From positions 1-45,545 of the IMG/VR virus record IMGVR_UViG_3300048919_000233: a stretch of 45,545 bases of DNA. One strand, 5' to 3'. The DNA is from a virus. This document shows, in pieces, positions 5,415 to 26,968 of this stretch (within the stretch, counting starts at the first letter, position 1; each line of letters starts with the position of its first letter). The position numbers and the translations under genes were made by a program. Under the pieces are notes generated by a model. That model did no database searches, was not told the DNA's origin, and saw only the letters and a program-made list of their open reading frames with translations.

Positions 5415-5438
5415 GATTTCACCACCCTTTACACATAC

Positions 5439-6430: not shown

Positions 6431-6457
6431 AATAAAAAAGAAGCCGTAGGAGCTTCT
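6431..6457 (-). terminator. Intrinsic terminator after the 93-residue gene
   Basis: On the minus strand GAAGC-tcctacg-GCTTC is followed by TTTTTT. It lies 16 bases after the stop of the small gene at 6473, so the chaperone-TMP operon probably starts from its own promoter in 6332-6430. Confidence 0.75.
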
Positions 6458-6472
6458 AATTTATTTTAACGC

Positions 6473-6754: not shown

Positions 6755-6949
6755 AAATAAACCTCCTGATTTAACATGTTTTCATAATATATAATACGAT
6801 AGAGGTGTTAATTAATCAACAAAATAGCAATTTGGCAAAGTTTGTATTAAATAGCTCTACCAAAGTACAAATGGTTACATACCCGTTCCTAAAGCAATAG
6901 TTGCGTTATATATATTAGTAATATATAATAATTTAAGTTAATGTATAGA

Positions 6950-6978
6950 TTAGCAAATATATTCAATATTGGTACAAT
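6950..6978 (+). promoter_or_regulatory. Sigma-A-like promoter for the acyltransferase
   Basis: TTAGCA (6950-6955), 17-base spacer, TACAAT (6973-6978), then a GGAGG ribosome binding site 9 bases later and the ATG at 6997. This gives the plus-strand gene its own promoter, as expected for a gene expressed from a lysogen independently of the late operon. Confidence 0.5.
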
Positions 6979-6996
6979 TAGTTACACGGAGGAAAA

Positions 6997-8082
6997 ATGG
7001 AGAAAAAAAATCGAATTATATTTTATGACGCACTTAAAATCATTGCAATCTATTTTGTGATTTTTTATCATGGCAACTCATTACCAAATGATATTGTTGC
7101 AAATAAATCAATAACAATATACTTCTACTATTTTACAAAATCTTTGCTTAGTTGTTGCGTCCCAATATTTTTCTTAGTAAATGGTGCTTTATCACTAAAC
7201 AAAACCTTCGATCTGTTCAAACATATAAAAAAAATTGTTAAAATATTTTTAATCGTTTTTAGCTGGGCAATCATAACCATATTAATAGTGGCATGGATTC
7301 GTAAAACTGCATTATCATTACATGATTTTATAGATATACTTTCCTCTTGGAAATATTCATGGATTAACCATTTATGGTTTTTAAATTCTTTAGTTGTTAT
7401 ATATATATTCTTTCCCATTATAAAACTATCTTATGATTGTAATAAGAGTTATTTTTATTTTTTCTTTATTATAATAATGGTTTTCACTTTCGGTTCTAAG
7501 TTGCTTTATATGTTAGTTGATGTTCAAACATTCACAACAGGAAAGAATAATATTAATTATATTATAAGCTATATTAGTCCATATAATCCAGTAATTGGTA
7601 TATACGGATATTCTTTAGGATATTTTATGTTAGGTGGTATACTAGCCAACTATATACAAGAAAATAAAATATTCACAGTTACAAAACTTTCTTTTCTAAC
7701 CTTGTTTTCAATGATTTCATTGACACTGTACGGAATAATTAAATCTGTTTTGACAGCAAGTTCCTATGATATTATTTGGAATGGATATGATTCTATTTTT
7801 ACACTTATTATCACAATAAGTCTCTTTTTTATTTTATCGCAGATTCATATTCCAGTAAAATATCACAGGTTAATCATTTTATTAGGACAAAACACACTTG
7901 GTATCTACTTTCTACATATGATTCTTATATATTTAATTAAACCATATTTTGTACAAATATTTACTATGCAAAATTTACTTCAAAATCATCTATTTTCGGT
8001 GCTAATATTATTTATGAGTTTAATATTATGCGTTATTTTGAAAATGATTCCTATTGTGAAAAATCTGTTCTTGTTAAGTTAA
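6997..8082 (+). CDS. Acyltransferase family 3 (OafA/OatA-like) membrane protein
   Basis: This 361-residue integral membrane protein has about ten hydrophobic segments. The N-terminal RIIFYDALKIIAIYFVIFYH is the family signature (R..D..R...I..V..H) in which the His is catalytic. Such enzymes move acetyl groups from the cytoplasm onto surface sugars or peptidoglycan; OatA-type proteins carry an extra SGNH domain that is absent here. The gene is on the opposite strand from the tail genes, more AT-rich than they are, and has its own promoter. In phages such genes change host surface glycans and so block re-infection; next to the tail fibre genes that role is plausible. The acceptor is unknown. 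Confidence 0.85.
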   Translation: MEKKNRIIFYDALKIIAIYFVIFYHGNSLPNDIVANKSITIYFYYFTKSLLSCCVPIFFLVNGALSLNKTFDLFKHIKKIVKIFLIVFSWAIITILIVAWIRKTALSLHDFIDILSSWKYSWINHLWFLNSLVVIYIFFPIIKLSYDCNKSYFYFFFIIIMVFTFGSKLLYMLVDVQTFTTGKNNINYIISYISPYNPVIGIYGYSLGYFMLGGILANYIQENKIFTVTKLSFLTLFSMISLTLYGIIKSVLTASSYDIIWNGYDSIFTLIITISLFFILSQIHIPVKYHRLIILLGQNTLGIYFLHMILIYLIKPYFVQIFTMQNLLQNHLFSVLILFMSLILCVILKMIPIVKNLFLLS

Positions 8083-8114
8083 GTTTAGCTTAATTTTGTT
8101 TTTTAGACAAACAA

Positions 8115-9029
8115 TCATTTATATATTAAAACGAAATAAACTTGATCATTTACAATGGCAGTATGCGAATTGATATAGCTCAAATAAGTGGTTGTGCCAC
8201 CCCTACCGACCGTTAAGTGCAGCACATGACCGTAACTTGTTGCATTGGGGATTGCGGCTGCAAGAACAGTGCCTTCGGGTGCTAAAGACGTCACCAGGGC
8301 CGATACGTCTATATATCCAGCACCAGGATTGAATCCGTAAAACTCTGAGCCGACCGTCACTATTTTTATATCATTTAGATTGCCGCTTAGTTTGTTTAAA
8401 TTGCTATTTAGTGCATTAACTGCCGTCGTCAAATTCGTTCCAGTTGCCAGCTCATCACCCATACCAATGCGTTCCGTCAACTTATGAACATAGGCTGCAG
8501 AATTTAGCTTTGTAGAGTCATTGACATCCATATTAGTGATCATTGATTTAAGTACGGCATTTTCGTTCAAACCCATAGTAACTGCTATAGACTTGGATAT
8601 CTTTCCAAGTGCGGTAGCAATAGCTTCTCCTGCAATGATATTGGCCAACTCTGTAGCTTGTGTGAAAAGCGTGTTTACATCAATAGTCCCATCAGCTCCC
8701 ACCTTAATACCATTACTACCTTTTACCACTCCAAGGGAATCTTGGGAGGCAGTCTTTACACTCATGGAACCGTCAGTGTTGACCTCCGTTGTTGTGCCGT
8801 CTGGTTTAACAGTTCCAACACTGTTTGCCGTAGCTTTACTGGTCCCCAGTGCTGAAACCTGCCAATAGTCTAAATTATCAGGCAAAGTACCGACAGGAGG
8901 TTTTGTATGCACCACATAGCTACTCCCATCAAATGATACCAAATTCAATATGTCATACTGCTTGTCAGGATCAAACTCCTCCACTGGCAGCATTCCTATT
9001 GTGCCATAAACTACTTCTGTATCTTCCAT
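8115..9029 (-). CDS. Tail fibre / receptor-binding protein
   Basis: This 304-residue protein starts MEDTEVVYGTIGMLPVEEFD, followed by a short YDILNLVSFDGSSYVVH-type segment seen at the base of Firmicutes phage fibres. The middle is low-complexity and Thr/Ala/Asn-rich (for example KPDGTTTEVNTDG). The C-terminal ~70 residues, rich in Gly and beta-branched residues, probably form the host-binding tip. Its ATG overlaps the stop of the upstream fibre gene, so the two are translationally coupled. Host specificity cannot be told from sequence. Confidence 0.75.
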   Translation of the reverse strand: MEDTEVVYGTIGMLPVEEFDPDKQYDILNLVSFDGSSYVVHTKPPVGTLPDNLDYWQVSALGTSKATANSVGTVKPDGTTTEVNTDGSMSVKTASQDSLGVVKGSNGIKVGADGTIDVNTLFTQATELANIIAGEAIATALGKISKSIAVTMGLNENAVLKSMITNMDVNDSTKLNSAAYVHKLTERIGMGDELATGTNLTTAVNALNSNLNKLSGNLNDIKIVTVGSEFYGFNPGAGYIDVSALVTSLAPEGTVLAAAIPNATSYGHVLHLTVGRGGTTTYLSYINSHTAIVNDQVYFVLIYK

Positions 9030-13203: not shown

Positions 13204-14040
13204 CTATGCAACTTCAACACAGTAAGCAATCATCATTTCTCGTATGACAGTTTCATAAATCGGTTTCAAAGCCTTGTCTGATTCAATGATTGTCAGTTTG
13301 TTTATGGCAGAAATACGGGATTGACTTGCCCCGGCAATGGCGGCTCTTCCCTTTTCGGTTTCCACACGCTGGTCTAATCTACAAGACTTCTTATCATTCA
13401 GACGCTTATAGCTTTCAGCCCTAACGGCTTTATGCCGCTCCTGACGATTTCCTATGTACCGGAAATTATCGCTTTCAGCTATTGCAGATAAGCAATGATT
13501 CACCCATGCTTTAAAGTCCTGTGCTGATTCTTTTGTGAATGTTTGACTGATTACTTTCTGATTCTCTTCCAGTATGCTTAATTTTTCCGCTTGCCGCTTT
13601 TGTTCAAGTTCCTGTCTCGCCATGGCTTCACCCATCTGCATGAACATCTGAAGCTCCGGTGATAACTGCATGCGGTTTATCGCAACTTCTTTCAACTTAT
13701 CCTCTGCCCTGATGAAATATTCCCTCGCCTGCTCTCCCTTTTCGTTTTTGGCAGTCATGGAAAGCTTCTTGGCAAATTTGGCAGTTAGCCTATAATCTGT
13801 TGTTGGGTTTGGATTGAATTTTTCTCGTTCTTCCTCAATGACGAACGGAAAATAATCAACTTTTTCTTCTGCAAATTCATTTTCTACAATATTGTTTCTG
13901 CTCCATCTGGCATAATTCTTTTTATCCAGTTCCATGAACTCATATAACTTTCGTGCCGTAGTCATTCCTTTTTCATCAATTCCCAATGCAATTTCTATGG
14001 GGGTCATGTTAGCGGTATAATTTACAATATTATTCTGCAT
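13204..14040 (-). CDS. AntA/AntB-type antirepressor with ORF6C domain
   Basis: This 278-residue protein has an N-terminal AntA/AntB domain (residues ~12-115: MTPIEIALGIDE, TARKLYEFMELDKKNYARW, AREYFIRAEDKL). A Gln/Glu-rich linker follows, then a C-terminal ORF6C-type domain (~165-278, with AESDNFRYIGNRQERHKAVR). Such proteins antagonise the prophage repressor. The ATG has GGGAGG in front. A terminator hairpin lies just upstream (14064-14091), and beyond that a promoter overlapped by LexA boxes, so expression could be tied to the SOS response if transcription passes the terminator. Confidence 0.9.
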   Translation of the reverse strand: MQNNIVNYTANMTPIEIALGIDEKGMTTARKLYEFMELDKKNYARWSRNNIVENEFAEEKVDYFPFVIEEEREKFNPNPTTDYRLTAKFAKKLSMTAKNEKGEQAREYFIRAEDKLKEVAINRMQLSPELQMFMQMGEAMARQELEQKRQAEKLSILEENQKVISQTFTKESAQDFKAWVNHCLSAIAESDNFRYIGNRQERHKAVRAESYKRLNDKKSCRLDQRVETEKGRAAIAGASQSRISAINKLTIIESDKALKPIYETVIREMMIAYCVEVA

Positions 14041-14063
14041 AGAATTACCTCCCGATAATTACA

Positions 14064-14091
14064 ACAAAAAAACACCTGTTACATAAGGTGT
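14064..14091 (-). terminator. Intrinsic terminator/attenuator before the antirepressor
   Basis: On the minus strand ACACCT-tatgtaac-AGGTGT is followed by TTTTTTT. It would end transcripts coming from the LexA-box promoter or from the antisense RNA start near 14436, or act as an attenuator for the antirepressor. Confidence 0.7.
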
Positions 14092-14129
14092 CTGGAATAA
14101 AAATCGTATACAAAAATGGAAATTAGTGG

Positions 14130-14151
14130 TAATATACTGAGTGATGGCGAC
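14130..14151 (+). promoter_or_regulatory. Extended -10 promoter and transcript start of the small membrane ORF
   Basis: TGG TAATAT ACTG is followed by AGTGATGGCGAC (14140-14151). The same unit, TAATATA-G/C-T followed by AGTGATGGCGAC, is present in opposite orientation at 14425-14448, so the locus has two convergent promoters with identical initial transcribed bases. Confidence 0.5.
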
Positions 14152-14177
14152 CATCTGCACTCGAAAGGAGTATGCGT

Positions 14178-14348
14178 ATGGAAGTTATCATTCTTGCCGT
14201 TGCTTCTATCGGTGCACATTTCAATGGCTATGATTTTGCAACATTGCATTTCTATATCTCATTGGCATTTGCACTGTATAAAGCATTTTCACACTTTACG
14301 AATGATAAAACTGCGTTGCAGGAAAGTACTAAAGATAACCAAGTCTAA
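14178..14348 (+). CDS. Small hydrophobic protein, candidate type I toxin
   Basis: The product has 56 residues: MEVIILAVASIGAHFNG, then a hydrophobic centre (TLHFYISLAFALYKAF) and a charged C-terminus. AAAGGAG lies 7 bases before the ATG and can be partly hidden in a small hairpin (ACTC-gaaag-GAGT), a common property of type I toxin mRNAs. It is one of the few plus-strand genes. A longer plus-strand frame across the same DNA (14116-14367) is rejected because it lacks a ribosome binding site. Toxicity is inference from layout and small membrane-like composition. Confidence 0.5.
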   Translation: MEVIILAVASIGAHFNGYDFATLHFYISLAFALYKAFSHFTNDKTALQESTKDNQV

Positions 14349-14512
14349 CCGCTTGATAATCTACTAATGAAAATTTTTACTTAATTTACTTAACAGGCTC
14401 ATTAAGTACCGCAACTGTTGGCGTGTCGCCATCACTACTACTATATTAAATTTTTTATGCCGGATTTTCAATAACATCTCGTCCAATAATCTTGACAAGT
14501 TCCGACATTTCA

Positions 14513-14562
14513 ATGTTACCACCAGAACATCTGTTTGTCAATTTCTTTCAGAACATTTGTTC
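14513..14562 (-). promoter_or_regulatory. Promoter overlapped by two LexA (SOS) boxes
   Basis: On the minus strand TTGACA (14541-14536), a 17-base spacer and TAACAT (14518-14513) form a near-consensus promoter. One LexA-type box, GAACATCTGTTT (14525-14536), fills the spacer; a perfect GAAC-N4-GTTC box, GAACATTTGTTC (14551-14562), lies upstream of the -35. LexA binding would block polymerase, so this promoter should fire after DNA damage. It points toward the small RNA locus and the AntA/AntB antirepressor. A 17-codon ATG frame starts almost at the predicted +1. Confidence 0.7.
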
Positions 14563-14586
14563 TTCCATCTGACTTTTATTTCAGAC

Positions 14587-14681
14587 TTGAAAGGAAGAAC
14601 GCTCTATGATAGAATATTTCATAGAGGTTTTCCTCGAGATAAGCACTCGTTGTTACTTGGTAGGTAGGACGGGTGCTTTTA
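14587..14681 (+). ncRNA. Candidate small RNA with promoter and terminator
   Basis: TTGAAA (14587-14592), a 17-base spacer and TAGAAT (14610-14615) precede a ~60-base segment. It holds a GAGG-tttt-CCTC hairpin and then AAGCACTCG...CGGGTGCTT followed by TTTT. It diverges from the LexA-box promoter and converges on the HTH gene end. A 32-codon ATG frame within it seems unlikely to be translated, since the ATG lies inside the -10 region. Confidence 0.5.
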
Positions 14682-14870
14682 ATAGACTTTACTACGATTT
14701 TTGAGTTTTTCTACTGCCTCTTTACTGAATAAATAATTTCGGTTTCCTGCTTCTCGCATTTCCGTTTCATTTAACCCCATTCTTTTTGCTAACTTAATCA
14801 GATATGTCGGAGTTAAATTTAATTCATCAGCAACTTCCCTCGTGATAAAGACCTCTCTTACATCGGTCAC
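14679..14870 (-). CDS. Small HTH DNA-binding protein (excisionase/MerR-like)
   Basis: The product has 63 residues from a GTG start at 14870, chosen because GGAGGTGAGAAT lies directly before it; the longer frame has no site. The sequence REVFITREVADELNLTPTYL is a helix-turn-helix, and NRNYLFSKEAVEKLKNR is the wing plus final helix seen in excisionase/MerR-like phage proteins. It could act as an excisionase or a small repressor. It is upstream of the SOS-type promoter on the same strand. No integrase lies next to it. Confidence 0.75.
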   Translation of the reverse strand: MTDVREVFITREVADELNLTPTYLIKLAKRMGLNETEMREAGNRNYLFSKEAVEKLKNRSKVY

Positions 14871-15060
14871 ATTCTCACCTCCTGTATATACTGTATCACA
14901 TTTGATGTCGAACGTCAATCTTTTTTTTATTTTACAATAGGGTTAAAAGGTACTGGATCTGCCCCATAGGCAGTACCCCTGCGTCAAATTTGACGTACCT
15001 TCTTTGTAAGAGCATAATTAAAAACAGGAATATAATCTTACCTTCGCAATAGTTGTTTTA

Positions 15061-15303
15061 TTACTTTTCAGATACACTAAGAGTTCCATTTCCATTATCA
15101 ATTAACTCACGGTTGGTTTTTAATACAATTTTATCTGCATATTCTTCCATATCCATAATAAAGCCATTTGGATACGTAGAACGCATACAGGTACAATTCG
15201 GGGCCACATTAATATTTTCATGTTTTATTTCTTTAAAGTCCTTACAAAACGCAGAAGTGTCAATAGTTGCTTCACATCCTGCTTTAAATATGTATTCGTA
15301 CAT
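15061..15303 (-). CDS. Hypothetical protein, 80 residues
   Basis: The product starts MYEYIFKAGCEATIDTSAFC at 15303, behind GAGGAGG. It includes four Cys, two of them in NCTCMRSTYPNGF, and ends in DNGNGTLSVSEK. No membrane segment. A 10-codon leader frame (MSNKYKFLEE) with its own ribosome binding site ends just before this gene's GAGGAGG and could couple translation. I do not recognise the family. It forms a single-gene unit between the HTH gene and the secreted protein gene. Confidence 0.6.
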   Translation of the reverse strand: MYEYIFKAGCEATIDTSAFCKDFKEIKHENINVAPNCTCMRSTYPNGFIMDMEEYADKIVLKTNRELIDNGNGTLSVSEK

Positions 15304-15507
15304 ATATATCCTCCTCATTCTTCTAAAAATTTATATTTGTTAGACATATCGTATCACTCCTAAAAACCTTTGTAAACAGCCTAAAATCAAGACTATAAGT
15401 GTATTATAAGACTAAGTTATAGAACCAAGAAAATATACCAAATGATACAACACCATACAAAACCATACCAATATATGGCAATGTTAGATATTAGAAATTG
15501 GTATAAC

Positions 15508-15535
15508 AAAAGGAGCAGGGGATTTTCCCTACTCC
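15508..15535 (-). terminator. Intrinsic terminator after the secreted protein gene
   Basis: On the minus strand GGAGTAGGG-aaaat-CCCCTGCTCC is followed by TTTTGTT, 16 bases past the stop at 15551. Confidence 0.8.
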
Positions 15536-15550
15536 TAGTAATAATACTAT

Positions 15551-15928
15551 TTAATTATTGGTCACGGTTTCAACTACCACCTGTCCGTCTTTTACCCAGG
15601 CACCGTCTGATCCTACAGTATAGCCGTCTGGTGTGGTGGTGTCGTGAAGCATATAACAGTATTCATCGAAATAATACCACTTTCCATCTGCTGGGTCATG
15701 GAACCATGTATTTTGTAACGCTAAACCTTCAGAATCAAGATATATCCAAGCTCCATCATATTGACGATGGTACCATGCATTTTTTATTGGGAGATAATCC
15801 TCATTCATCACTTCCCACCGGGGTCTTAGTTCCCCCTCTTTTAGTGGTCTGCGATCTTCTGCAAAAGATGTTATATTTAAAGAAACCATCAGCATTACTG
15901 TAGCTATGATTAAACGTTTTGTTTTCAT
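15551..15928 (-). CDS. Secreted protein with cell-wall-binding repeats
   Basis: This 125-residue protein has a clear signal peptide (MKTKRLIIATVMLMVSLNIT, cleavage likely after SFA). The mature part is made of aromatic cell-wall-binding (choline/glucan-binding type) repeats: NAWYHRQYDGAWIYLDSEG, NTWFHDPADGKWYYFDE and GYTVGSDGAWVKDG. There is no catalytic domain, so it is probably not a lysin by itself. The gene follows the tail tip protein and has its own terminator. It may be a lysogenic conversion gene that coats the host wall, or the wall-binding remnant of a lysin. Confidence 0.8.
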   Translation of the reverse strand: MKTKRLIIATVMLMVSLNITSFAEDRRPLKEGELRPRWEVMNEDYLPIKNAWYHRQYDGAWIYLDSEGLALQNTWFHDPADGKWYYFDEYCYMLHDTTTPDGYTVGSDGAWVKDGQVVVETVTNN

Positions 15929-15995: not shown

Positions 15996-17942
15996 TTATA
16001 CTCTTGATTCTCTTATCTTATCATATAGCCAGTCTAAAGCTTCAAATAATGTGTATTTACTCCACCAGTTATCACCATGTAATTCGCAGTCACCATTTAT
16101 TTTTCTTGCATTAATAAACGGTGTTTCTAAATGATGATCAGATACTATAGTAGTCCCGGATTGCGAGCTTAAAGTTACTGCTGCATACTTGCCAAATGGC
16201 CCTCCTCTTGCTGTTTGAATTACTACGGTTCCATCAGTAGAGCGTAAAACATTGCTTCCATCTGCACTTACATAATAATCTCCAAATCCTACGGCACTGT
16301 CATTTGCATAAAATGTTTCTGATTCCAAATTCCCAGAGAAGGAACCATTTATGGCATTAATGTTCCTACATGTCAGTACTCCATCTTTTGTCATGCTGGA
16401 GTAATTGGATTCCCATGATAAACGGTTTGTCTTAAGAATAATATCGTATGGCTCAATTGACAGCTGGGAAGAAACCTCTCCTAGACTTACCTTATTCAAT
16501 ATCTGTCCAGCGGTTATCCTGAATTGTGCCTCTGTATCCTCTTTAAAATTCTTTACCGTAGCGTCAATTTCATCGGCCCTCATCTTTATGGCCGCCTCTG
16601 CAATTGTTGCTCTTGTAACTTCCTGAAGAATCTGGTCAGCAGTTATTACGAACTGTGCTTCCGTGTACTCTTTCAGGTCCGTTACTCGGACGGATACCTC
16701 CTCCACAGATTTTTTGATAACAGCGGTTTTCCCTTCAAGTTGAATTATCTGAACGCCAAGTCCAAAGCTCTGTTCCTGTTCAAGACTCCCTTGTGCTTCG
16801 TACGTATCCATCATGCCCTGAATACCTTTCAAAGTTCGTTCAAGGCAATACGTTTCAATAACATCATCTGTAGTATAACATATGATACCATCACCAACTT
16901 CTAACCATGGAAGAGCTGGGCCAACGATATGACATGGTCTGTAAATTCTTCCTGATATCTTGTCATAAACTGTAGCTGCAATCGAAAGCAGTTCTTGGGA
17001 CGATTTCCCATATACCAGGTAATTTCCCTGAATCACATAGCAGTTGTTACCGGGGCCATAAGAAGCTCCAACATCACCCTCCTCTTGCCTAATCTGCACC
17101 TTATCAATAGGACTGACCACATAGTCCTCATAATGAGTTTCAGACTGCTTGTAATAAGATAATGTTTCCGCATTGGTCATCTCAGACGGAAACAACTCTT
17201 CATCAGGAAATAAGGTTTCAGACGGGAACAAACCAGAGTTTTCCAGAAACTTATATGTAAGCCGGCCTGTCTTATCAAAGTTCCCAAAGCAACCATTTAA
17301 CTCGCAGATAGCCATTAAAACCTTACGGCCATCCAATTGCTCTGGTTCAATTGTCTTTGTAATCTGCATATCGTCCAAGGGTAATTTCGTTATGACCTGC
17401 GTAATGCCTACATGAGCGCAGAGTAAATCCCGGAACTGTTTCAGTGTTAGCGGGAAGGTTAGACTCTGGTACCAGTCAGCTACATCAATATCAAAATACA
17501 ACATACGGTCATATGCCGTAATTTTCTTTCGCCGCCGATCCGCCTGTTCCCGGACAAAGCTATCTACCTTATAAACGCCAAATGCCATTTCATAGCCGCC
17601 GATCTCAACAGTGGCCATAAACTCTTTCCCGGTAAGATCCATCAGTACATCAGCAACCGTGATTTCAAACATAGATGCGCAACACTCGCCAAATGCTAAA
17701 TTCTGGCTTGAGCATACACTTTCTGTTATGGTCATAGATTCTGATATTATCTGGCTGTTATCAATCACATACACCGGCTCCTGGTCAACCGGGAATAAAT
17801 CATCAGACGGGAACAGCAAATCATCAGGATAGAGCAGTTTTATTTCTTCATCAAAGAATCGCAGTTTTATGTGTCGCTGTGTGGCAGCACTTAAGTTATC
17901 TGCCCGGAACAATTCTTTTATTTCCTCTGGAATATTCAGCAT
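15996..17942 (-). CDS. Tail tip / prophage endopeptidase tail family protein (Tal)
   Basis: This 648-residue protein begins MLNIPEEIKELFRADNLSAA and carries the repeated LFP-S/D motif (LLYPDDLLFPSDDLFP, and LFPSETLFPDEELFPSEM) seen in clostridial Tal homologues. Residues ~60-390 form the hub domain, a coiled coil with two KxxTEAQFxITAxQIL repeats follows (~410-510), and the C-terminal ~150 residues are Gly/Ser/Thr-rich fibre-like sequence. It forms the tip of the tail, where it contacts the cell wall. It starts 13 bases after Dit behind GGAGGTCGGCGAT and is transcribed with it. No separate lytic domain is visible. Confidence 0.85.
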   Translation of the reverse strand: MLNIPEEIKELFRADNLSAATQRHIKLRFFDEEIKLLYPDDLLFPSDDLFPVDQEPVYVIDNSQIISESMTITESVCSSQNLAFGECCASMFEITVADVLMDLTGKEFMATVEIGGYEMAFGVYKVDSFVREQADRRRKKITAYDRMLYFDIDVADWYQSLTFPLTLKQFRDLLCAHVGITQVITKLPLDDMQITKTIEPEQLDGRKVLMAICELNGCFGNFDKTGRLTYKFLENSGLFPSETLFPDEELFPSEMTNAETLSYYKQSETHYEDYVVSPIDKVQIRQEEGDVGASYGPGNNCYVIQGNYLVYGKSSQELLSIAATVYDKISGRIYRPCHIVGPALPWLEVGDGIICYTTDDVIETYCLERTLKGIQGMMDTYEAQGSLEQEQSFGLGVQIIQLEGKTAVIKKSVEEVSVRVTDLKEYTEAQFVITADQILQEVTRATIAEAAIKMRADEIDATVKNFKEDTEAQFRITAGQILNKVSLGEVSSQLSIEPYDIILKTNRLSWESNYSSMTKDGVLTCRNINAINGSFSGNLESETFYANDSAVGFGDYYVSADGSNVLRSTDGTVVIQTARGGPFGKYAAVTLSSQSGTTIVSDHHLETPFINARKINGDCELHGDNWWSKYTLFEALDWLYDKIRESRV

Positions 17943-17955
17943 ATCGCCGACCTCC

Positions 17956-18354
17956 TTAATATTCAGTTATCGTTATCTTAATCGGCTTATAAAGTATATC
18001 TTTTTTCTTCTCATCAACATTTACAATCTCATAGGGAATATCCGAAATATAAAACGCCCCCGATTTATACGAGGACGTGTTTGGATTCCAATATTCAATT
18101 TTACATTTTACTCTGTTTCCGTGTGGTACAAAGGCATTCAGCCTATCAGCATCTTTTAAGCATAAATGTGTGGTTGAAAACTCCATGGAGGTAGCGGTAT
18201 GGGGTAAGGCGTTACGATGTAGTTCCCCGTTACCATCTCGGTAAGGATCTAGGTCCATTATCTGATCAGGCGTGCACTTAAATGATTCCAGCGCAATTAA
18301 TTCATTTGGAAACATTGTCCCATTAATTTTCAATAGCCAGCCTTCAAATGCCAA
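17956..18354 (-). CDS. Distal tail protein (Dit)
   Basis: The product has 132 residues starting from TTG at 18354 (MAFEGWLLKINGTMFP). This start follows GGAGGTGGGAGA; the longer ATG frame from 18387 would place its start codon inside a terminator hairpin. The N-terminal half is the conserved Dit core, with TPDQIMDLDPYRDGNGELHR and the following beta-strand segment; the C-terminal galectin-like domain of long Dits is absent. Dit forms the ring between tail tube and tip. Tal follows directly. A decayed copy of the first ~40 codons lies 1.7 kb upstream at 19903-20079. Confidence 0.85.
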   Translation of the reverse strand: MAFEGWLLKINGTMFPNELIALESFKCTPDQIMDLDPYRDGNGELHRNALPHTATSMEFSTTHLCLKDADRLNAFVPHGNRVKCKIEYWNPNTSSYKSGAFYISDIPYEIVNVDEKKKDILYKPIKITITEY

Positions 18355-18373
18355 TCTCCCACCTCCAGACGCA

Positions 18374-18408
18374 CAAAAAAGCGCCATCTTTAGGACAACG
18401 CTTTCTTT
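18374..18408. terminator. Bidirectional terminator hairpin before Dit
   Basis: AGCGCCATC / GACAACGCT pair with G-U wobbles. On the minus strand the stem is followed by TTTTTTG, on the plus strand by TTCTTTT. It ends the inhibitor transcript before Dit. The same hairpin is conserved in the decayed Dit copy at about 20072-20094. Confidence 0.6.
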
Positions 18409-18420
18409 TCATTCTATACC

Positions 18421-18462
18421 ACAATATCATTTTAACATATTAGATATGGGAAATGTGGGAAT
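18421..18462. repeat. Direct repeat, copy 1, upstream of Dit
   Basis: ACAATATCATTTTAACATAT and GGGAAATGTGGGAAT occur here separated by TAGATAT. The same two blocks occur without that 7-base insert at 20108-20142. Together the copies flank the protease and inhibitor genes. Confidence 0.85.
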
Positions 18463-18535
18463 GTTGCTAATATTACAGACTTGCTTAAATTATACTATCT
18501 AAGATATGTTGATTTAATAAAAAGAGTTTAAAATT

Positions 18536-18853
18536 TCATTCAACAGTCACAGTAATTTCAAAACTTTTCACAATTTCTTTTTGCCATGGTCTTTGGTACT
18601 CATGTCTTATAATCCTTTGACCTAATTCACATGCTTTATACAACCAAATTCGCTTTGAATTTCCTCCAATTAATGAATGATATTCATTTAAGATCTCTTC
18701 ATTCACAAGGGAAACAATCTTTTGTGTCTTAACACTCTTTTCTATCCATGTGTAACCAGAGGAGATGCATTCAGATAAGATTATTTTTAATTCATCTCCC
18801 TTTTTTAACTTAATAATTTCCCCATTGTCTTTTTCTTCTACAGAAATAAGCAT
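18536..18853 (-). CDS. Chagasin-like cysteine protease inhibitor (family I42)
   Basis: This 105-residue cytoplasmic protein has the three loops that chagasin-family inhibitors insert into papain-like proteases: SSGYTW (residues ~31-36), a Gly-Gly loop in LIGGNSKRIW (~62-71) and YQRPW (~86-90). Length and beta-rich pattern fit the family. No signal peptide. It follows the C1A protease gene by 17 bases on the same strand, so the two form an enzyme-inhibitor operon, with the inhibitor presumably protecting the cell from its own protease. Inhibition of this particular partner is inference. Confidence 0.85.
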   Translation of the reverse strand: MLISVEEKDNGEIIKLKKGDELKIILSECISSGYTWIEKSVKTQKIVSLVNEEILNEYHSLIGGNSKRIWLYKACELGQRIIRHEYQRPWQKEIVKSFEITVTVE

Positions 18854-18870
18854 TTTTAAACCGAACTTTC

Positions 18871-19725
18871 TTATTGATATTCTATAATTTGTTTATTAAC
18901 ATTTGAAATGTTAACTTTTTCTTTAAAATCTTCTCCAAATTGTTCCAATATTTTTTCCTTAGCATCTATCAAAGATCTAACATTATCAATCAAATCTGTA
19001 GCTCCATAAGCTTCAAAGTATTTATCATATTTTATATAATCATAAGGTAGGTAACCATACCCTTCGTCTCCCCATTCATTACCCCATGAATTTTTAAATT
19101 TTAACATTTGTGTGTCATCATCATATCCAACAACACAAAGTGCATGTCCACCTATATCGCCTCCTTTAGGGAGTGGTATTTTACCCGTATCCCATACTTC
19201 TGTAGTTTGCCAATTATCAAATACGGAAACACCAATGACAAAAGGGCCATTAACAATTAAACTTGTTTTCATGGTTTGTAATGATTTCCCAATATTTTCA
19301 TAAGATTTAATTTTATAATTTTTAGCATTCTCATTAGCACCTTGGCGCGGCACTCCAACTTGATTAGGTGCGTAAGACCAGTACTCTTCTTCACAAACCC
19401 CTAAATTGTAAAGAATTTTCATTGCTATATTGATAGATGTTCCATCAGCCTCGGGAATTCCATCAATTTCTTTACATTTCTGATAAAGATAACGGGGCGA
19501 TAATTTAATGATTCTTTTATTCTCTTTTAATTCTTGCGACTCTTTCATTCCTACCGTACAAGCAAAGCCAACACAGGTTCCTTCCTCTCCTTGATCTCCG
19601 ACATCACTAAGCTCTTTCACCACAAATTTGGCTGGAACAGATAATACCGGCAACACCGCTGACATTAAAATATCTCGTTTATCAATTGGTGAAGGGAATA
19701 AACCTAATCCTTTAATTTTTGACAT
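18871..19725 (-). CDS. Papain-family (C1A) cysteine protease
   Basis: This 284-residue protein has the full C1A signature. The oxyanion Gln and catalytic Cys are in GDQGEEGTCVGFA (~42-54), the catalytic His in GDIGGHALCVVGYDD (~190-204), and the Asn in FKNSWGNEWGDEGYGY (~212-227). The opening GLGLFPSPIDKRDIL resembles bacterial C1A enzymes whose short prosegment folds over the active site. No signal peptide or membrane anchor is present, so it would act in the cytoplasm or leave on lysis. The ~55 C-terminal residues after the protease core are helical and unidentified. The inhibitor gene follows. No phage structural role is known for such enzymes. Confidence 0.9.
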   Translation of the reverse strand: MSKIKGLGLFPSPIDKRDILMSAVLPVLSVPAKFVVKELSDVGDQGEEGTCVGFACTVGMKESQELKENKRIIKLSPRYLYQKCKEIDGIPEADGTSINIAMKILYNLGVCEEEYWSYAPNQVGVPRQGANENAKNYKIKSYENIGKSLQTMKTSLIVNGPFVIGVSVFDNWQTTEVWDTGKIPLPKGGDIGGHALCVVGYDDDTQMLKFKNSWGNEWGDEGYGYLPYDYIKYDKYFEAYGATDLIDNVRSLIDAKEKILEQFGEDFKEKVNISNVNKQIIEYQ

Positions 19726-19902
19726 ATTGAATTCTCCTTATAATTTATTATGTCATTATTATTCCATTATAAAAAAAAATTATCCTTAATAAATCTTCTA
19801 GAAACTTGCAATCTCATCATAAAACCTGTGCTCAAAATACTGATAATATAAAATAATCTTGATTTTTATATGGCTCTGCTTTTAAAGCATTTAACTATTC
19901 AC

Positions 19903-20079
19903 TTAGCGCAATATTGGGAAAAGTCTATAACTGTGAGAATAAGTCATGATCTTAGTTGTCGTACGATTAAATAGTTCCAGTATAATCAGCTCATACTGAA
20001 ACACAGTTGTACTATTCATTTTCACTTTGTTGCCTTCAAATCCAAAATCTCCACTTACAGATATAAGAAAAAGCGTCAT
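19903..20079 (-). pseudogene. Decayed duplicate of the Dit gene 5' end
   Basis: The 58-codon frame MTLFLISVSGDFGFEGNKVK aligns with the long form of Dit's start (MALFCASGGGRLAFEGWLLK), sharing LF, S, G, FEG, K, N, T, F and ELI-LE over ~36 residues and then diverging. The leader hairpin and the direct repeat before it are also shared. After the aligned part the frame runs into unrelated sequence. It is therefore a remnant of a second Dit gene or a recombination scar, not a working gene. The surrounding 19726-20212 contains nothing else I can support. Confidence 0.65.
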
Positions 20080-20107
20080 CTTAACGACAACGCCTTTTTT
20101 TAATACT

Positions 20108-20142
20108 ACAATATCATTTTAACATATGGGAAATGTGGGAAT
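20108..20142. repeat. Direct repeat, copy 2, upstream of the Dit remnant
   Basis: The two blocks of the repeat at 18421-18462 are fused here without the 7-base TAGATAT. The 35 bases are otherwise identical. It lies about 30 bases upstream of the remnant's start, exactly as copy 1 does for Dit. Confidence 0.85.
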
Positions 20143-20212
20143 CTTGTATTGGCCATTAAATCTATATACTTATAAATATATAAATGCACAATCATTAACA
20201 AAATACTTACCA

Positions 20213-21133
20213 TTAGGTAACGATCCTATTTTTAGCCTTATCAATAATAATTACATCTTCGGGATAATAACGTAGCTTGATAGCACCGTCATTTACAATA
20301 AATAAATCATGGAGATTCCCTTTTTCACGATTTGGTAATATCAATTCATCATCAACACCATCTACATTATCATGCAACCAAGGAATAAAGTTATCTAAAC
20401 CATTATATCCCTTTTTATAGAATACAACTAGTCTTCTAAATAGTTTGGGCCAAATTATTAATTCTTGTAAATCATCTAGACCATTTATTTTTACAGATAA
20501 TTCTGTATTACAATCTTCTTCCAACCATAAGCCTTTTTTCTCCTCACGGATGCTCTTTACTTCTTTAGCAATATAATCAATTAGAGAAATAGGTAATGAA
20601 GTATATAAAGCCGGATAAGCCAAGCCTTCAAAAAATAATTTATAGTTAATGCTACTTTGAAGTACTTGTTCATCTACATATATATTTGCGCCATCTTCCT
20701 CTTTAGCATTGCCTGGATATACAAGCGCAATAACTCGTCCATACACATCAACTTCATTGGCCAATATATAACCTACCATAAAATTAGCGTTAGCCGATTC
20801 AATTTTATGAGAGTTACTACTACTGTAAACAATATCTTTAAATCCTAAACTTTCAAGCATAAAGTCTCTAGCTGTAAAAGCATAATGCTCTTGTTGATGT
20901 GTCATCCCACCAGGTGCAGGAAAATGTGTTTCAAGTGCATCTATTGCCTCAAATCTAATTTTTATCATCTCTCTTTTTGTTATATCTGCTTTTCGCTTGA
21001 AGTTTTTAATCAAGTCAATATTATCTGGCATAAAAGTTATTGTATCTCCATCAGGTTCAGGACCCTGACCTGGTAAATCTGGATATAAAATGTGAAATGA
21101 ACCCTTAATTAGTGTATATCTTGAACTTTCCAT
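20213..21133 (-). CDS. SNase-like (thermonuclease fold) protein
   Basis: This 306-residue protein has staphylococcal-nuclease-like motifs in the first 75 residues: EPDGDTITFMPDN (the GD metal/strand motif) and IKIRFEAIDALETHFP (the R-x3-IDA-x-E catalytic pattern). A long helical and mixed C-terminal part (residues ~100-306) is not part of the classical SNase core and I cannot name it. No signal peptide, unlike secreted thermonucleases, so action inside the cell or after lysis is likely. It lies 24 bases after a DUF2278 gene and shares its transcript. The nuclease call rests on motifs only. Confidence 0.7.
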   Translation of the reverse strand: MESSRYTLIKGSFHILYPDLPGQGPEPDGDTITFMPDNIDLIKNFKRKADITKREMIKIRFEAIDALETHFPAPGGMTHQQEHYAFTARDFMLESLGFKDIVYSSSNSHKIESANANFMVGYILANEVDVYGRVIALVYPGNAKEEDGANIYVDEQVLQSSINYKLFFEGLAYPALYTSLPISLIDYIAKEVKSIREEKKGLWLEEDCNTELSVKINGLDDLQELIIWPKLFRRLVVFYKKGYNGLDNFIPWLHDNVDGVDDELILPNREKGNLHDLFIVNDGAIKLRYYPEDVIIIDKAKNRIVT

Positions 21134-21157
21134 TTCTTCTTCCTTTTATCTTTATTA

Positions 21158-21943
21158 TTAACTATTTATTTTACAAATATTTTTTTCATTTTTATGATCG
21201 TATATAAAAGAATCTCCTTCTGAATTGCCAGTAATATCATTTGTATCCCAAGTTTGAGATTGAAAAGCCAGAAATATTGCTTCCCAATGTTTATCTGAAT
21301 ACTCTAATAATATACAACCATCTTGATATACACCATTGAATTTTTCATATGGGCCTATACTTCCTTGATTCATATGAACCTCATGAATACCTTTTCCATT
21401 GTCAAAATGGCCTCCATATACATAGATACTAGCTCCAGTGGATATTGCATTTTCCCCAATATGTTTTTGGAAAAAATCAGCCAAATCATTATCTGGCCCA
21501 ATCTCACTTGAAGGCAAAATACTCATTTTACAAGGATCAAATAGTTTACTACGAATAAAGTCTACTGCAATATTTTCAGGATTGTACTTATTATCTGGAT
21601 AGTTTATATCTAAATTTCTAGGGTAATCTAATTCAGAAAAAACATATTTATTATGATATTTTATTGGGTAAAAACCCAAATCCAATTCCTGTAGATGTGT
21701 AATTTGTTTTGCGTCGAAATCAGCATCTGCAATGAATAAAAGTTCATTTGGTACTTTCTTATCATTAATTATAATTGGTTTCTTTGGGGCCGATTTTGTA
21801 TTAACTGCAATTTTATATTCAATATTTTTGACTTGTACATAAATATATACATGTGGACTATGAGGATCTGTCCTAGCATCCCCCTCCTCATACCTAGTTA
21901 CTTTCCCTTTTAAAACTCCATATAAATCGTTAATTCCACTCAT
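21158..21943 (-). CDS. DUF2278 (YukJ-like) protein
   Basis: The 261-residue product matches the YukJ/DUF2278 pattern. The N-terminal GVLKGKVTRYEEGDARTDPHSPHV is followed by a domain with EVHMNQGS (~183-190) and the signature GVYQDGCILLEY, then W-x-AIFLAFQSQTWDT (~230-245). The molecular function of the family is not established. It has no signal peptide. It is the first gene of a two-gene unit with the SNase-like gene and is divergent from a small plus-strand gene, with promoters presumably in 21944-22310. Confidence 0.85.
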   Translation of the reverse strand: MSGINDLYGVLKGKVTRYEEGDARTDPHSPHVYIYVQVKNIEYKIAVNTKSAPKKPIIINDKKVPNELLFIADADFDAKQITHLQELDLGFYPIKYHNKYVFSELDYPRNLDINYPDNKYNPENIAVDFIRSKLFDPCKMSILPSSEIGPDNDLADFFQKHIGENAISTGASIYVYGGHFDNGKGIHEVHMNQGSIGPYEKFNGVYQDGCILLEYSDKHWEAIFLAFQSQTWDTNDITGNSEGDSFIYDHKNEKNICKINS

Positions 21944-22310: not shown

Positions 22311-22625
22311 ATGGCACTTGAATTTAGAGTAGTAGGTATTTTTCAAAGAAATAATCAAAATTTATCAACCGATCCAAATGTATTTCACTTTAAGGATTAT
22401 GTTAAGTTTAATGGTAAAGTAAAATATGCTTATGCTGCATTAATGAGTATTGATATTAATACGGATCAAGGAATTAAAGATTATGCGATACAGGTTCTAG
22501 CTGGCCCTCATCCCTTAGATCCAAATGCAGCTGAAGGCATATTAACTATAAGAGGTACTCCGATTGGTGAAAACACAAAATTCTTCGGCAACGCACAGTA
22601 TATTATTATAGCAGATACTGAATGA
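22311..22625 (+). CDS. Hypothetical protein, 104 residues, divergent from the DUF2278 gene
   Basis: The product starts MALEFRVVGIFQRNNQNLST with a strong AGGAGG site and an AT-rich -10-like region just upstream. The pattern of alternating hydrophobic residues (YAYAALMSIDINTDQG, QVLAGPHPLD, GNAQYIIIADTE) suggests a small beta-sandwich. No signal peptide or Cys. A plus-strand terminator follows at 22799. Its position facing away from the DUF2278/SNase unit suggests it belongs to the same cargo, but I do not recognise it. Confidence 0.65.
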   Translation: MALEFRVVGIFQRNNQNLSTDPNVFHFKDYVKFNGKVKYAYAALMSIDINTDQGIKDYAIQVLAGPHPLDPNAAEGILTIRGTPIGENTKFFGNAQYIIIADTE

Positions 22626-22997: not shown

Positions 22998-23435
22998 TTA
23001 CTGTTTTATTAAAAATCTATCTATTTTTTTACCAATAGATCTTCGATCATACCCTAATTCAACTGCAATATCATTTTCAGTCCTTCCCTCTATATATTTC
23101 ATGGTAAGAATATGCTTCATTTCTATATCTTCTAAATTTAGTTTTTCAAGCAAACATTCAATCTCCAGTTTCATATCCTCAAAGAGCCGTTCATTTCCTT
23201 TCAAATCAATCAGTAGCTGCCGGACCATCTTTTCTCTTTCCTCATTCGATTTTACATTTGCTCCGGAAACTACAAAATGACATTCTGTAAATGGGAACTG
23301 CTTTAGTGATCCTTTCACAACCCCATATTCAGAAGTCAATGGATTGTTCTCGTAGTATTTTATCCTACGCCTAAGACGCTTAATTTCGGATTCCAGGTAT
23401 GTATAAGTAGCTAAATATTCCCTCGTCAATATCAT
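22998..23435 (-). CDS. Phage sigma-70-like / ArpU-type late regulator
   Basis: This 145-residue protein starts at the ATG at 23435 behind GAGGAGG; the TTG two codons upstream is too close to the site. The N-terminal coiled coil is rich in Arg/Lys/Glu. The C-terminal ~40 residues (MKYIEGRTENDIAVELGYDRRSIGKKIDRF) form a sigma region 4-like helix-turn-helix. Related proteins turn on late genes in Firmicutes phages. It overlaps the end of the HNH gene. Regulators of this class usually precede the terminase genes; here it follows them. Confidence 0.8.
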   Translation of the reverse strand: MILTREYLATYTYLESEIKRLRRRIKYYENNPLTSEYGVVKGSLKQFPFTECHFVVSGANVKSNEEREKMVRQLLIDLKGNERLFEDMKLEIECLLEKLNLEDIEMKHILTMKYIEGRTENDIAVELGYDRRSIGKKIDRFLIKQ

Positions 23436-23437
23436 AA

Positions 23438-24025
23438 TCAAGTCCTCCTCATAGAATCTCTTCTATTCCCCCCTAGCCCTAAACTAGGTGTATTCAATGC
23501 AGTTTCCAAATCCCAGCCCAATTTACAAACTCTGTCTCTAACCATCGATGGTCTTTTATCATGCTCTCTACATAACTGCGCGAATGATTTCTTTGATATA
23601 GGAGTTTCAAAAGCCTTTTCAGAAGACCAACCACAAGTAATCCGATTATGAATCGTATCATATGTCAATCCCAATTCATTGCACCACACCATTAAATCTT
23701 TCGTCTGTCCTTTATAAGCAACAAATATTGAACCTCTTTTGTTAAAAGCCTGCTGCTGCCTTGTGATCCACATACAGTTATTCGGCTCGTAATTGCCATT
23801 CACATCTTTTCGTTCTATAGTCAATCCATTTCTGTATCCATTAGCTTTTGCCCATTCTGCATATTCATCAAATCCTTTAAGCCACTCATCGCATATTTCA
23901 ATTCCTCTTCCACCGTAATCTTTATAACGCTTACAATTTGGATTTAAACAGCGTTTTTTCATACTATGATAAGAGTTCCATAGACTTAAATTTTCTTTCT
24001 TGGGGTTTCTCAACGTTTTTGTCAT
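23438..24025 (-). CDS. HNH-type (homing) endonuclease
   Basis: The 195-residue product starts MTKTLRNPKKENLSLWNSYH at 24025, where GGAGG follows directly after the TerL stop. The core W-x-SM-x-RC...YGGRGIEICDEWLKGFDEY...GLTIERKDVNGNYEPNNC is the phage HNH/AP2-associated endonuclease pattern (the final ER-x-D and N...NC supply the metal site). The C-terminal half contains repeated short helix-turn-helix units (W-x-ELGLTYDTIHNRI and LCREHDKRPSMVRDRV) that probably read DNA sequence. Free-standing HNH genes next to terminase are common, as homing elements or packaging partners. Confidence 0.85.
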   Translation of the reverse strand: MTKTLRNPKKENLSLWNSYHSMKKRCLNPNCKRYKDYGGRGIEICDEWLKGFDEYAEWAKANGYRNGLTIERKDVNGNYEPNNCMWITRQQQAFNKRGSIFVAYKGQTKDLMVWCNELGLTYDTIHNRITCGWSSEKAFETPISKKSFAQLCREHDKRPSMVRDRVCKLGWDLETALNTPSLGLGGNRRDSMRRT

Positions 24026-24039
24026 AAATCTTATCCTCC

Positions 24040-25707
24040 TTAACACGGTCTTCGAAAAGCGGTGACTTTAGCGCCACCCATATTTTGTGTAAACAATGCG
24101 AACTGCGCCCAGCCGTCGGGAACATCATCATGCGGAGTTTTACCTTTCACTGAATAGCTAAGCAAAAAGCTTATCATCACCCCGTAATCACTTTTTGCTT
24201 TATAAAGGGAAGAATCTTTAAATAAAACATGCTTTTTTACCCAGTCCGCATTTACTATAATCTTTGTTTCCTTATTGCTATCAGTGAATTTTGTGGTAAT
24301 ATTGCAACGGCCATTCTTCTGCTCCACCAGTTTATTAACTTCGTACCCTACCCTGCTACCGCCGTTATTACTCTCGAACTGGCACTGCTGCAGCTTATTG
24401 TCCACGATTATCTGGGAACACCTTTCATACTGAACGCCATAGTCGGAATTATCATCACAAATACAATCGAGGCAGTAGTAATCATTTCCATATTGAGCCA
24501 CACAAGGAAGGAACATATAATCAGTACCTTTGTCCTTTGTATCACATATTCCCAGAAGAGCGTCTGGCTCCCCTAACGGTAGCGCAAGGTATCGCCTTAA
24601 TTCATCTTCATGATATAAAAGGCCTTCACGCTCAATCGGCTGGCTTTTATATAGGCACTTGTAGGAAATGTCATCCATTGCCAATGCCTGATCATTGAAG
24701 AAAGCAACTGAAAAGCCATTATATTCATAATCAAAGTTTGATTTCTCAGAAACTGGATCAATGTCTGGAACCTCAATAAATCTCACCCTGTCACTGTCAT
24801 GATACAATTTTTTTATTCTTCCAATGACATCATGGACAGACCACCTTGTCGCAATATGAATCTCCTTACAACCGTCCATCTTTCTCTGCTTGCCATCAAC
24901 ACTGTATAGGGACCAGAGTTTATCTAACCGAATTTTGTTTAATGCTTCTTCAATACCACCAATAAGATCATCACAATACAGGTACCGGTTACACCTAACC
25001 TTACCAGCATTCTTTGATCCAATAGATGTACACTGAATATTGGGGAAAGGCTTGTACTTATTGAAATTAATTGTTTCTGTCTTAGCATTTGTGCTTTGAA
25101 GTGTCACATTTGGGAATATTTCATTCCAGGTATATTCTTCTGAATTCATAGTGATATCATATATGCCGTCATAAAACATTCTCGTGATATCGCCACTATG
25201 AGAATAGAATAAGCTGAAATCATCTGGGTGTTTACCAATTACCCACGAAGCAAAGAATTTCTCCAAAGTCGTTTTCTGCGTCCCGGGTGGCATTGATATA
25301 CTTAAGATATCCAGCCTATCATCTTCCAAATCCTGCATTGCCTGAATCAACCCGTGTTTGTTTAGCTGCTCACGTTTCGGTAAATAAAATCGATCCTTTG
25401 CTTCTCGGTTCTTTTCCAGATAGATCAGATATGATTCAAATAAATATGGAGCTTCAAAATGCAAAGTCTTCCAGTACAGATCATCCCAACGGGTATCCAT
25501 TGTTTGGACAAATCTTGTGACGGCCCATTTCTTGATAAACCCAGAATAAGTCATAATGAAATCCCGGTCATCAACTGGCAGGTCAAGATTATCTTGCATT
25601 GTATATTGGAGTTCTGATAACAGAATGTTTAGAATTTCGTAAGAAGGCGGCGTATCAATCTGTCGCTTTAATTTTTTGATTATTTCTCGATGTTGCTGAA
25701 AATCCAT
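24040..25707 (-). CDS. Terminase large subunit (TerL)
   Basis: The 555-residue DNA-packaging motor protein has an N-terminal ATPase and a C-terminal RNase H-like nuclease. The Walker A-like loop SMPPGTQKTTLEKFF lies near residues 140-155, with Gln where Gly or Ser is more usual. A Walker B and coupling region follow, with YCDDLIGG (~240) and HIATRWSVHDVIGRI (~270). The nuclease has GICDTKDKGTDY (~375) and a late HDDVPDGWA (~535). The start follows AAGGAGG. Length is complete. No portal or capsid gene follows; instead come the HNH gene and a regulator. Confidence 0.9.
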   Translation of the reverse strand: MDFQQHREIIKKLKRQIDTPPSYEILNILLSELQYTMQDNLDLPVDDRDFIMTYSGFIKKWAVTRFVQTMDTRWDDLYWKTLHFEAPYLFESYLIYLEKNREAKDRFYLPKREQLNKHGLIQAMQDLEDDRLDILSISMPPGTQKTTLEKFFASWVIGKHPDDFSLFYSHSGDITRMFYDGIYDITMNSEEYTWNEIFPNVTLQSTNAKTETINFNKYKPFPNIQCTSIGSKNAGKVRCNRYLYCDDLIGGIEEALNKIRLDKLWSLYSVDGKQRKMDGCKEIHIATRWSVHDVIGRIKKLYHDSDRVRFIEVPDIDPVSEKSNFDYEYNGFSVAFFNDQALAMDDISYKCLYKSQPIEREGLLYHEDELRRYLALPLGEPDALLGICDTKDKGTDYMFLPCVAQYGNDYYCLDCICDDNSDYGVQYERCSQIIVDNKLQQCQFESNNGGSRVGYEVNKLVEQKNGRCNITTKFTDSNKETKIIVNADWVKKHVLFKDSSLYKAKSDYGVMISFLLSYSVKGKTPHDDVPDGWAQFALFTQNMGGAKVTAFRRPC

Positions 25708-25771: not shown

Positions 25772-26968
25772 TTATTCGCTTGCTTTATAATTATATACTG
25801 GCTTTATTATTTTCTCAATATCAACGGTTTCCTTTATGTTCTGGATAATCTCCTCCATTGGCTTATACACCATAGGAGATTCATCAATAGTAGAACGATT
25901 TACAGAGGTTGTAAAAATACCTGTCATAGATATTTCAAACTCCTCTAATGAGACTTTTTCTTTTGCTTTGGATCGGCTCATTATTCGCCCGGCTCCATGA
26001 GGGGCGGAGCTATTCCAGTCATCATTCCCTTTTCCTCTCCCAATAATGGAACCATCACGCATATTGATTGGTATTAACAGTAACTCATCCTTTCTGGCTG
26101 AGATAGCACCCTTTCGCACAATGTTTGTATCATGGTCAATGTAATTATGAATTGTCTGAAATGACTTTCCCTGGGAATATTCCCAACCCATCTCCTGACA
26201 AATAATTGATGCAATGCATTCACGATTAGTTCCAGCAAAGCTCTGACAAATTTTCATGTCATGTAAGTAATGTTCCCTATCTTCTCCGATCAAATAGCAA
26301 AGTTCTTTTGGAATATTCAGTTTATCCGGCTGAAATTTACGTTTCAGTTCCTTTATAGCAGGCTCTATTTCTTTGACACGACCAGCAGTCCTATATTCCT
26401 TAATCAACTCTTGAATGACCTGTTCCAATTTCCTAGATCCCTGCATACTGTCTATGGCCACTTGCTGATATATTTCAGCTACCTGTTTACCAAGATTACG
26501 GCTCCCAGTATGAATAATCAAATATTTATTACCATCGGGATCTTCATCGACCTCTATGAAGTGATTGCCACCGCCCAATGATCCCATGCTACAGCGTAAC
26601 CAATTGATATTTTTAAGTTCGGACCTGCAATGAAGTTTTTCAATATCCGGGAAAGAAATTTCTTCTTTCCTAACATTAAGACCGGAAGGAATATTTCCAC
26701 GAATGACTGAATCAAATTTTTCGTAGTTAATATCAATTCCGCCCAGGCCAACAGCCAGCATTCCACAGCCAATATCCACGCCGACAATATTTGGAATCAC
26801 CTTGTCCCCCAGATCAGCAGTAAAACCAATTACGCAGCCTTTTCCAGCATGAACATCCGGCATTATCCGTACTTTACATTCAGCAAATGCCGGCTGTTTT
26901 ATCAACGTATAAATCTGATTCAAAGCCTCAGGCTCTATATTTTCAGTAAAGATTTTTAAATCACTCAT
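25772..26968 (-). CDS. rtcB: RNA-splicing ligase RtcB
   Basis: This 398-residue GTP- and Mn-dependent ligase joins RNA 2',3'-cyclic phosphate or 3'-phosphate ends to 5'-OH ends. The motifs are intact: DVHAGKGCVIGFTA (~41-54), GVDIGCGM with the metal Asp and Cys, GGGNHFIEV and HTGSRNLGKQ with metal His residues, HNYIDHD, and PHGAGR (~325-330) with the His that takes GMP. In bacteria RtcB is linked to repair of cleaved tRNA and rRNA. Here it lies 1 base after a zinc-ribbon gene, downstream of a KAP NTPase and two tRNAs, so repair of cut tRNA during infection or defence is a reasonable inference. Confidence 0.95.
   Translation of the reverse strand: MSDLKIFTENIEPEALNQIYTLIKQPAFAECKVRIMPDVHAGKGCVIGFTADLGDKVIPNIVGVDIGCGMLAVGLGGIDINYEKFDSVIRGNIPSGLNVRKEEISFPDIEKLHCRSELKNINWLRCSMGSLGGGNHFIEVDEDPDGNKYLIIHTGSRNLGKQVAEIYQQVAIDSMQGSRKLEQVIQELIKEYRTAGRVKEIEPAIKELKRKFQPDKLNIPKELCYLIGEDREHYLHDMKICQSFAGTNRECIASIICQEMGWEYSQGKSFQTIHNYIDHDTNIVRKGAISARKDELLLIPINMRDGSIIGRGKGNDDWNSSAPHGAGRIMSRSKAKEKVSLEEFEISMTGIFTTSVNRSTIDESPMVYKPMEEIIQNIKETVDIEKIIKPVYNYKASE

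Follow-up and report, generated by a model that had tools for sequence, protein, structure and literature searches.

The virus record IMGVR_UViG_3300048919_000233 of IMG/VR, analysed here over its full 45,545 bp (the window), carries on its minus strand a C1A papain-like protease gene (C1), a chagasin-family inhibitor gene (I42), an SNase-like nuclease gene and a DUF2278 (YukJ-like) gene. A sequence-only reading of the same DNA had joined these four into one set within a phage tail region. The open reading frames (ORFs) of all four sit where that reading placed them, and I42 lies downstream of C1 at the 17-base distance it gave (measured gap 17 bp). It was also right that none of the products has a signal peptide, as judged by a simple hydropathy check, and that none is a known tail component, there being no PHROG tail match among them. 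A lysis or tail role was considered for the four genes and dropped, as none has a PHROG match of either kind.

The Peptidase_C1 profile matches C1 with 66 bits, against a cut-off of 20.7. The catalytic motifs, which the sequence-only reading had called complete, are indeed intact (Q45, C51, H194 and N212) and are kept in all near relatives. With phmmer, 3ois is the best sequence match (5.6e-32), and the predicted model (predicted local distance difference test, pLDDT, 84) has xylellain 3OIS as its best fold match (E 1e-21, template modelling score, TM, 0.75-0.80). The N-terminus consists of a short segment in place of a long propeptide. By profile, residues and predicted fold, the product is a xylellain-type C1A peptidase. 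Separately, in a Paenibacillus C1 relative (L007 5983-7896) the protease is joined to a long stretch of repeats that, by eye, resembles FG-GAP.

The I42 profile scores 51.3 bits, compared with a curated cut-off of 27.2. The model has an Ig-like fold, for which EhICP2/chagasin is the best match (E 6e-11, TM 0.87); TM values against 3M88/2NNR are 0.82-0.87. The product is thus predicted to be a chagasin-family I42 inhibitor. The I42 proteins paired with C1 are signal-less single domains of ~105 aa, compared with the other I42 genes of 398 Bacillota-phylum genomes, which mostly encode a hydrophobic N-terminus and in many cases larger proteins. No I42 relative occurs in the phage collection, and a peptide-pattern search of viral contigs returned no relative of I42, SNase or DUF2278. 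An Acetobacter plasmid carries a weakly matching I42 gene (E 6e-3) with toxin-antitoxin genes nearby and no annotated protease.

C1 and I42 are adjacent in four unrelated contexts: the window, a second prophage (L075), a Priestia megaterium plasmid of 16.8 kb (L005) and the chromosome of Hazenella coriacea (L006), where core chromosomal genes flank the pair. In L075 the two genes occupy a cargo zone directly before HNH/TerL, with a PADLOC endonuclease effector (1.8e-34) upstream of them; the L075 I42 is intact and its C1 frame has one in-frame stop, at codon 67. Two further loci, L038 and L040, have C1 and I42 as looser neighbours. Among the 398 Bacillota-phylum genomes, 22 contain I42 and 16 an A1-like C1; both occur in five, against 0.9 expected (Fisher p=0.0009). 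Scans for further pairs in 379 Bacilli, 42 Hazenella-order and 248 Paenibacillus-order genomes matched only genomes already known, and the close C1 clade is therefore rare and sporadic. C1 genes that have an I42 partner group together (two changes, against 3.7 for shuffles, of which only 5 among 500 scored as low) in a tree that does not settle the deep forks. C1-I42 is probably one portable two-gene unit. On the Priestia plasmid L005, a Cys-rich protein of 270 aa is encoded by four paralogous genes close to the pair (1-1818, 13998-15801), and a DUF2278-bearing Priestia plasmid encodes a relative of this protein with 53-57% identity (L026 10378-11211).

The surroundings of the pair differ from the tail module first described. 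In ordinary relatives of this phage (L055, L057, L058, L061-L063, L065-L067, L073 and L074), the tape-measure gene is followed directly by DUF6711 and then by a tail gene. The window's sublineage has a variable cargo slot ahead of DUF6711, and it is in this slot, adjoining the tail gene, that the region lies. Strong PADLOC matches are found in seven of 12 distinct relative slots. These hold ShosTA (ShosA 1.6e-78, ShosT 4.5e-27) with an FRG protein in L011, the FRG candidate PDC-S15 (4.5e-12) in L012, the STAND candidate PDC-S60 (2.2e-59; a metallophosphoesterase plus a STAND-like protein) in L009, PD-T7-1 (4.2e-122) in L123, an AlwI-type restriction-modification pair in L068, and type I/IIG-like restriction-modification in L070 and L071. 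Slots L010 and L014 give weak matches only, and L013, L015 and L021 none. Established defence kinds account for 9/20 slot proteins compared with 1/20 of the non-slot accessory proteins used as controls (Fisher p=0.004), and any strong PADLOC match for 12/20 versus 5/20 (p=0.027); these p values are indicative because same-operon proteins are not independent and the controls, two sets of ten, were chosen by hand. The window C1-I42 pair lies in a defence hotspot, a position that supports membership of a defence system and is not sufficient for it.

The slot also reveals how the four genes are arranged. An element of ~100 bp, comprising an extended -10-like sequence (TGTTAAAAT) followed by a terminator-like hairpin, is present in exactly one full copy in each of eight same-architecture relatives, ~70-100 bp before DUF6711 and with differing cargo in front; four more distant loci retain its -10 half. 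The element before DUF6711 marks the cargo slot in the window and in L009, L013, L015, L021, L053, L054, L056 and L059. Mean column identity over 10 copies is 88%, and the hairpin is 100% paired in all ten, with a few one-sided changes and a single two-sided one, so that covariation is not decisive. A sigma-70 scan of the cargo found promoter-like sites no more numerous than in shuffles. The window is the only locus examined with a second copy, and each of its copies stands directly behind a cargo unit. C1 and the SNase-like gene are 487 bp apart, and this gap contains the second copy together with a remnant of DUF6711.

Because the gap holds both a gene remnant and a copy of the phage promoter/terminator element, the four do not form a single operon. 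The positions of copy and remnant therefore place C1-I42 between two cargo boundaries and DUF2278-SNase ahead of the first. At the other C1 loci, blastp gave no SNase or DUF2278 match at L002-L008, and inspection of the L075 ORFs found none. Likewise, the SNase and DUF2278 relatives that were fetched (plasmids and one Bacillota genome) have no adjoining C1-I42 in their annotation or ORF lists, and the one genome of the 398 with an SNase-like gene has it flanked by unrelated genes. The linkage expected from the sequence-only reading thus holds for C1-I42, which recurs in four contexts, and fails for DUF2278 and SNase, whose link to the pair was seen nowhere else. A single four-gene cassette was accordingly rejected on the duplicated element, the remnant between the pairs and the lack of linkage elsewhere.

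DUF2278 and the SNase-like gene make up another cargo unit, separate from the first; on the simplest reading this second unit would have brought its own boundary into the slot through recombination at the start of DUF6711. This unit is possibly defensive as well, and the 104-aa protein encoded divergently from DUF2278 is possibly part of it; that protein has no Pfam match above cut-off and no PHROG, NCBIfam or PADLOC family. The SNase profile barely passes (23.5 bits, cut-off 21), and the motifs DGDT, R..(A)IDALETH and GR are kept in the aligned relatives from Nonomuraea, Streptomyces, Methylobacterium and a Bacillota genome. The Nonomuraea frame (L022 5461-7260) extends into a C-terminal stretch that appears lamin-tail-like by eye. 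No paper on DUF2278 was found in the literature covered.

Features of the window around the cargo slot. Matches are profile E values unless described otherwise.
Feature	Coordinates	Strand	Evidence
Predicted C1A papain-like protease, short bacterial (xylellain) type, 284 aa	18871-19725	-	Pfam PF00112 Peptidase_C1 5.2e-18
Predicted chagasin-family (I42) cysteine protease inhibitor, 105 aa, signal-less	18536-18853	-	Pfam PF09394 1.4e-13
SNase-like nuclease, 306 aa, second cargo unit	20213-21133	-	PF00565 7.9e-5
DUF2278 (YukJ-like) protein, 261 aa, second cargo unit	21158-21943	-	PF10042 1.5e-56
104-aa protein, divergent from DUF2278	22311-22625	+	good ribosome-binding site
Element copy 1, directly before DUF6711, distal slot boundary	18348-18464	-	extended -10-like TGTTAAAAT + hairpin
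Element copy 2, directly after SNase-like gene	20043-20144	-	
Remnant of DUF6711 5' end	19903-20079	-	blastp 47% identity over 45 aa to intact gene; DNA alignment
Intact DUF6711 gene, bounds slot	17956-18387	-	PF20458 4.9e-42
Tail protein downstream of DUF6711	15996-17942	-	phrog_18190 1.6e-139; phrog_6616 tail 5e-19
Late-regulator-like protein, bounds other side of slot	22998-23441	-	phrog_36 transcriptional regulator 1.7e-13
HNH gene	23438-24046	-	
Terminase	24040-25707	-	
RtcB RNA ligase gene	25772-26968		
dGTPase-like gene	35120-36439		PADLOC 1e-102

Along the direction of transcription the order is terminase, HNH, late-regulator-like gene, the region of interest, DUF6711 and tail gene. 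The late-regulator-like gene has the same position in relatives, and the window DUF6711 is 85-94% identical to those of same-architecture relatives. The phage collection contains no near-identical or closely related phage DNA. Portal, scaffold, major capsid and head-tail connector genes, which relatives place between the accessory genes and the tape-measure gene, are absent from the record (zone 5414-9029), where a tail-chaperone-like gene (5828-6331) is followed directly by a plus-strand acyltransferase. The window is a defective or rearranged prophage. In the window's sublineage (L053-L059) the DUF6711-tail segment precedes the head genes, but in L125/L127 it comes behind the tape-measure gene; several records stop shortly past the latter gene. 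The RtcB gene adjoins the terminase gene, as it does in L013.

The likeliest role of C1-I42 is that of a defence module, because the slot upstream of DUF6711 holds defence genes in relatives. Specifically, we propose that the pair is a portable unit carried in a defence-cargo slot of the prophage, the protease being the effector and the inhibitor the antidote in abortive infection, and give this proposal somewhat less than an even chance. Also in its favour are the recurrent pairing, the co-occurrence of C1 and I42 in genomes, the signal-less form of the paired I42s and, in L075, an intact I42 next to an interrupted C1. A lysogen would make both proteins, and I42 would plug the active-site cleft of C1 in the manner of chagasin, keeping the protease silent. 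A superinfecting phage might then free C1, because host expression shuts down, a less stable inhibitor disappears or the phage supplies a trigger. The freed enzyme would cut host and/or phage proteins and end the infection, with the cell paying the price; prophage-borne Lit acts likewise. The families, folds, intact catalytic residues, cytoplasmic form, four-context pairing and slot position are observations, whereas binding, toxicity, trigger and defence are what we infer. The broader claim, that C1-I42 represents a new phage-defence toxin-antitoxin class in which a chagasin-held papain-like protease is released on superinfection, spread by Bacillota prophages and plasmids, is doubtful.

Several observations weigh against the defence proposal. 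C1 occurs without I42, with intact catalytic residues, in a Bacillus prophage lineage (L002-L004) and in Paenibacillus (L007/L008); the inhibitor is therefore not obligatory, and perhaps the N-terminal segment restrains the enzyme in these lineages, such that an inhibitor is not always needed. None of the five window cargo proteins matches a system model of PADLOC-DB 2.0.0. PADLOC matches also exist outside the slot, where the five strong control hits include one, a dGTPase, that is not a computational PDC candidate. Finally, of the three chagasin loops that the sequence-only reading had ascribed to I42, GG and RPW are present, and the first is degenerate, with ECISSG where NPxTG is expected. 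The defence or toxin-antidote idea of that reading is supported in part: the four-context recurrence, the cytoplasmic form and the defence-gene slot fit it, while the two sister lineages lacking I42 speak against a strict toxin-antitoxin pair.

Among the alternatives, the one that survives best is that the protease (and the nuclease) leaves lysing lysogens and harms or digests neighbouring bacteria, with I42 shielding kin. The gene logic would be that of intracellular protealysin and its inhibitor emfourin, a proposed interbacterial system (PMC9505478). Moreover, a Streptomyces SNase-like relative (L023 5989-8493) adjoins an emfourin-M4 protease pair, and a Priestia DUF2278 gene lies among several proteases. 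However, a signal peptide, a delivery domain and nearby secretion genes are all absent, the other cargo of the slot is intracellular defence, and an extracellular protease would need to re-enter its target cells. We consider this explanation improbable.

It is less probable again that C1 serves the phage or its lysogen, in lysogenic conversion or in counter-defence (for example by digesting host proteins or defence factors), with I42 merely tuning its activity. Three Bacillus prophages keep C1 alone beside their terminase genes, unrelated phages carry it as well, and tailed phages have reportedly acquired xylellain-type C1A genes (PMC10380794). Yet the examined slots of this phage's relatives lack C1, and its very sporadic distribution in genomes is a cargo pattern. 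Lower still we place an addiction module that kills cells losing the mobile element and has no anti-phage role. The two-gene layout, enzyme first and inhibitor second, and the presence of the pair on the 16.8-kb plasmid and in prophages would suit such a module, but the Hazenella copy sits between core chromosomal genes, C1 exists without I42, and a defective prophage has little need of stabilising. Least probable is that these are neutral or decayed genes, picked up by a defective prophage and without present function. The missing portal and capsid genes, the gene remnant inside the cargo and the interrupted C1 of L075 would agree with this, but all window cargo ORFs are intact and the active-site residues are kept.

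Compared with known systems, C1 shares its fold, catalytic residues and short N-terminal segment with xylellain-type C1A peptidases (3OIS), and differs from them in its chagasin-gene partner and its location in a defence slot. I42 shares the fold and the GG and RPW loops with chagasin, EhICP2 and the P. aeruginosa ICP; unlike these it is cytoplasmic and single-domain, adjoins its likely target and has a degenerate NPxTG loop. ShosTA, PD-T7-1 and restriction-modification systems take the same slot in related prophages and are unrelated to C1-I42 in sequence. To our knowledge, few characterised phage defences have a protease effector that comes with its own protein inhibitor. Phage-borne xylellain-type proteases (PMC10380794) and protease-inhibitor operons are already known; no report of C1A paired with I42, as prophage cargo or in a defence slot, turned up in the literature searched, whose coverage was partial. 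If the defence proposal is correct, it would provide a bacterial, conflict-driven setting for chagasin-type inhibitors as well as a compact candidate system. Such inhibitors are best known from protozoan parasites. Separately, the element before DUF6711 can serve as a search handle for mining further unknown defence genes from the cargo slot.

By analogy, the nearest precedents for the proposed mechanism would be Lit of prophage e14 and protealysin with its operon partner emfourin. Protealysin-emfourin (M4) is likewise an intracellular protease-inhibitor pair; C1 and I42 belong to unrelated families and so fall outside that group. We know of no case in which protealysin-emfourin is prophage defence cargo, nor of an inhibitor paired with Lit. 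When emfourin was deleted, FtsZ decreased and culture density dropped sooner (PMC9505478). Lit differs from C1 in family and in being triggered by a phage peptide; as a protease of a defective prophage it acts inside the cell and aborts infection by cleaving EF-Tu (PMC6379469).

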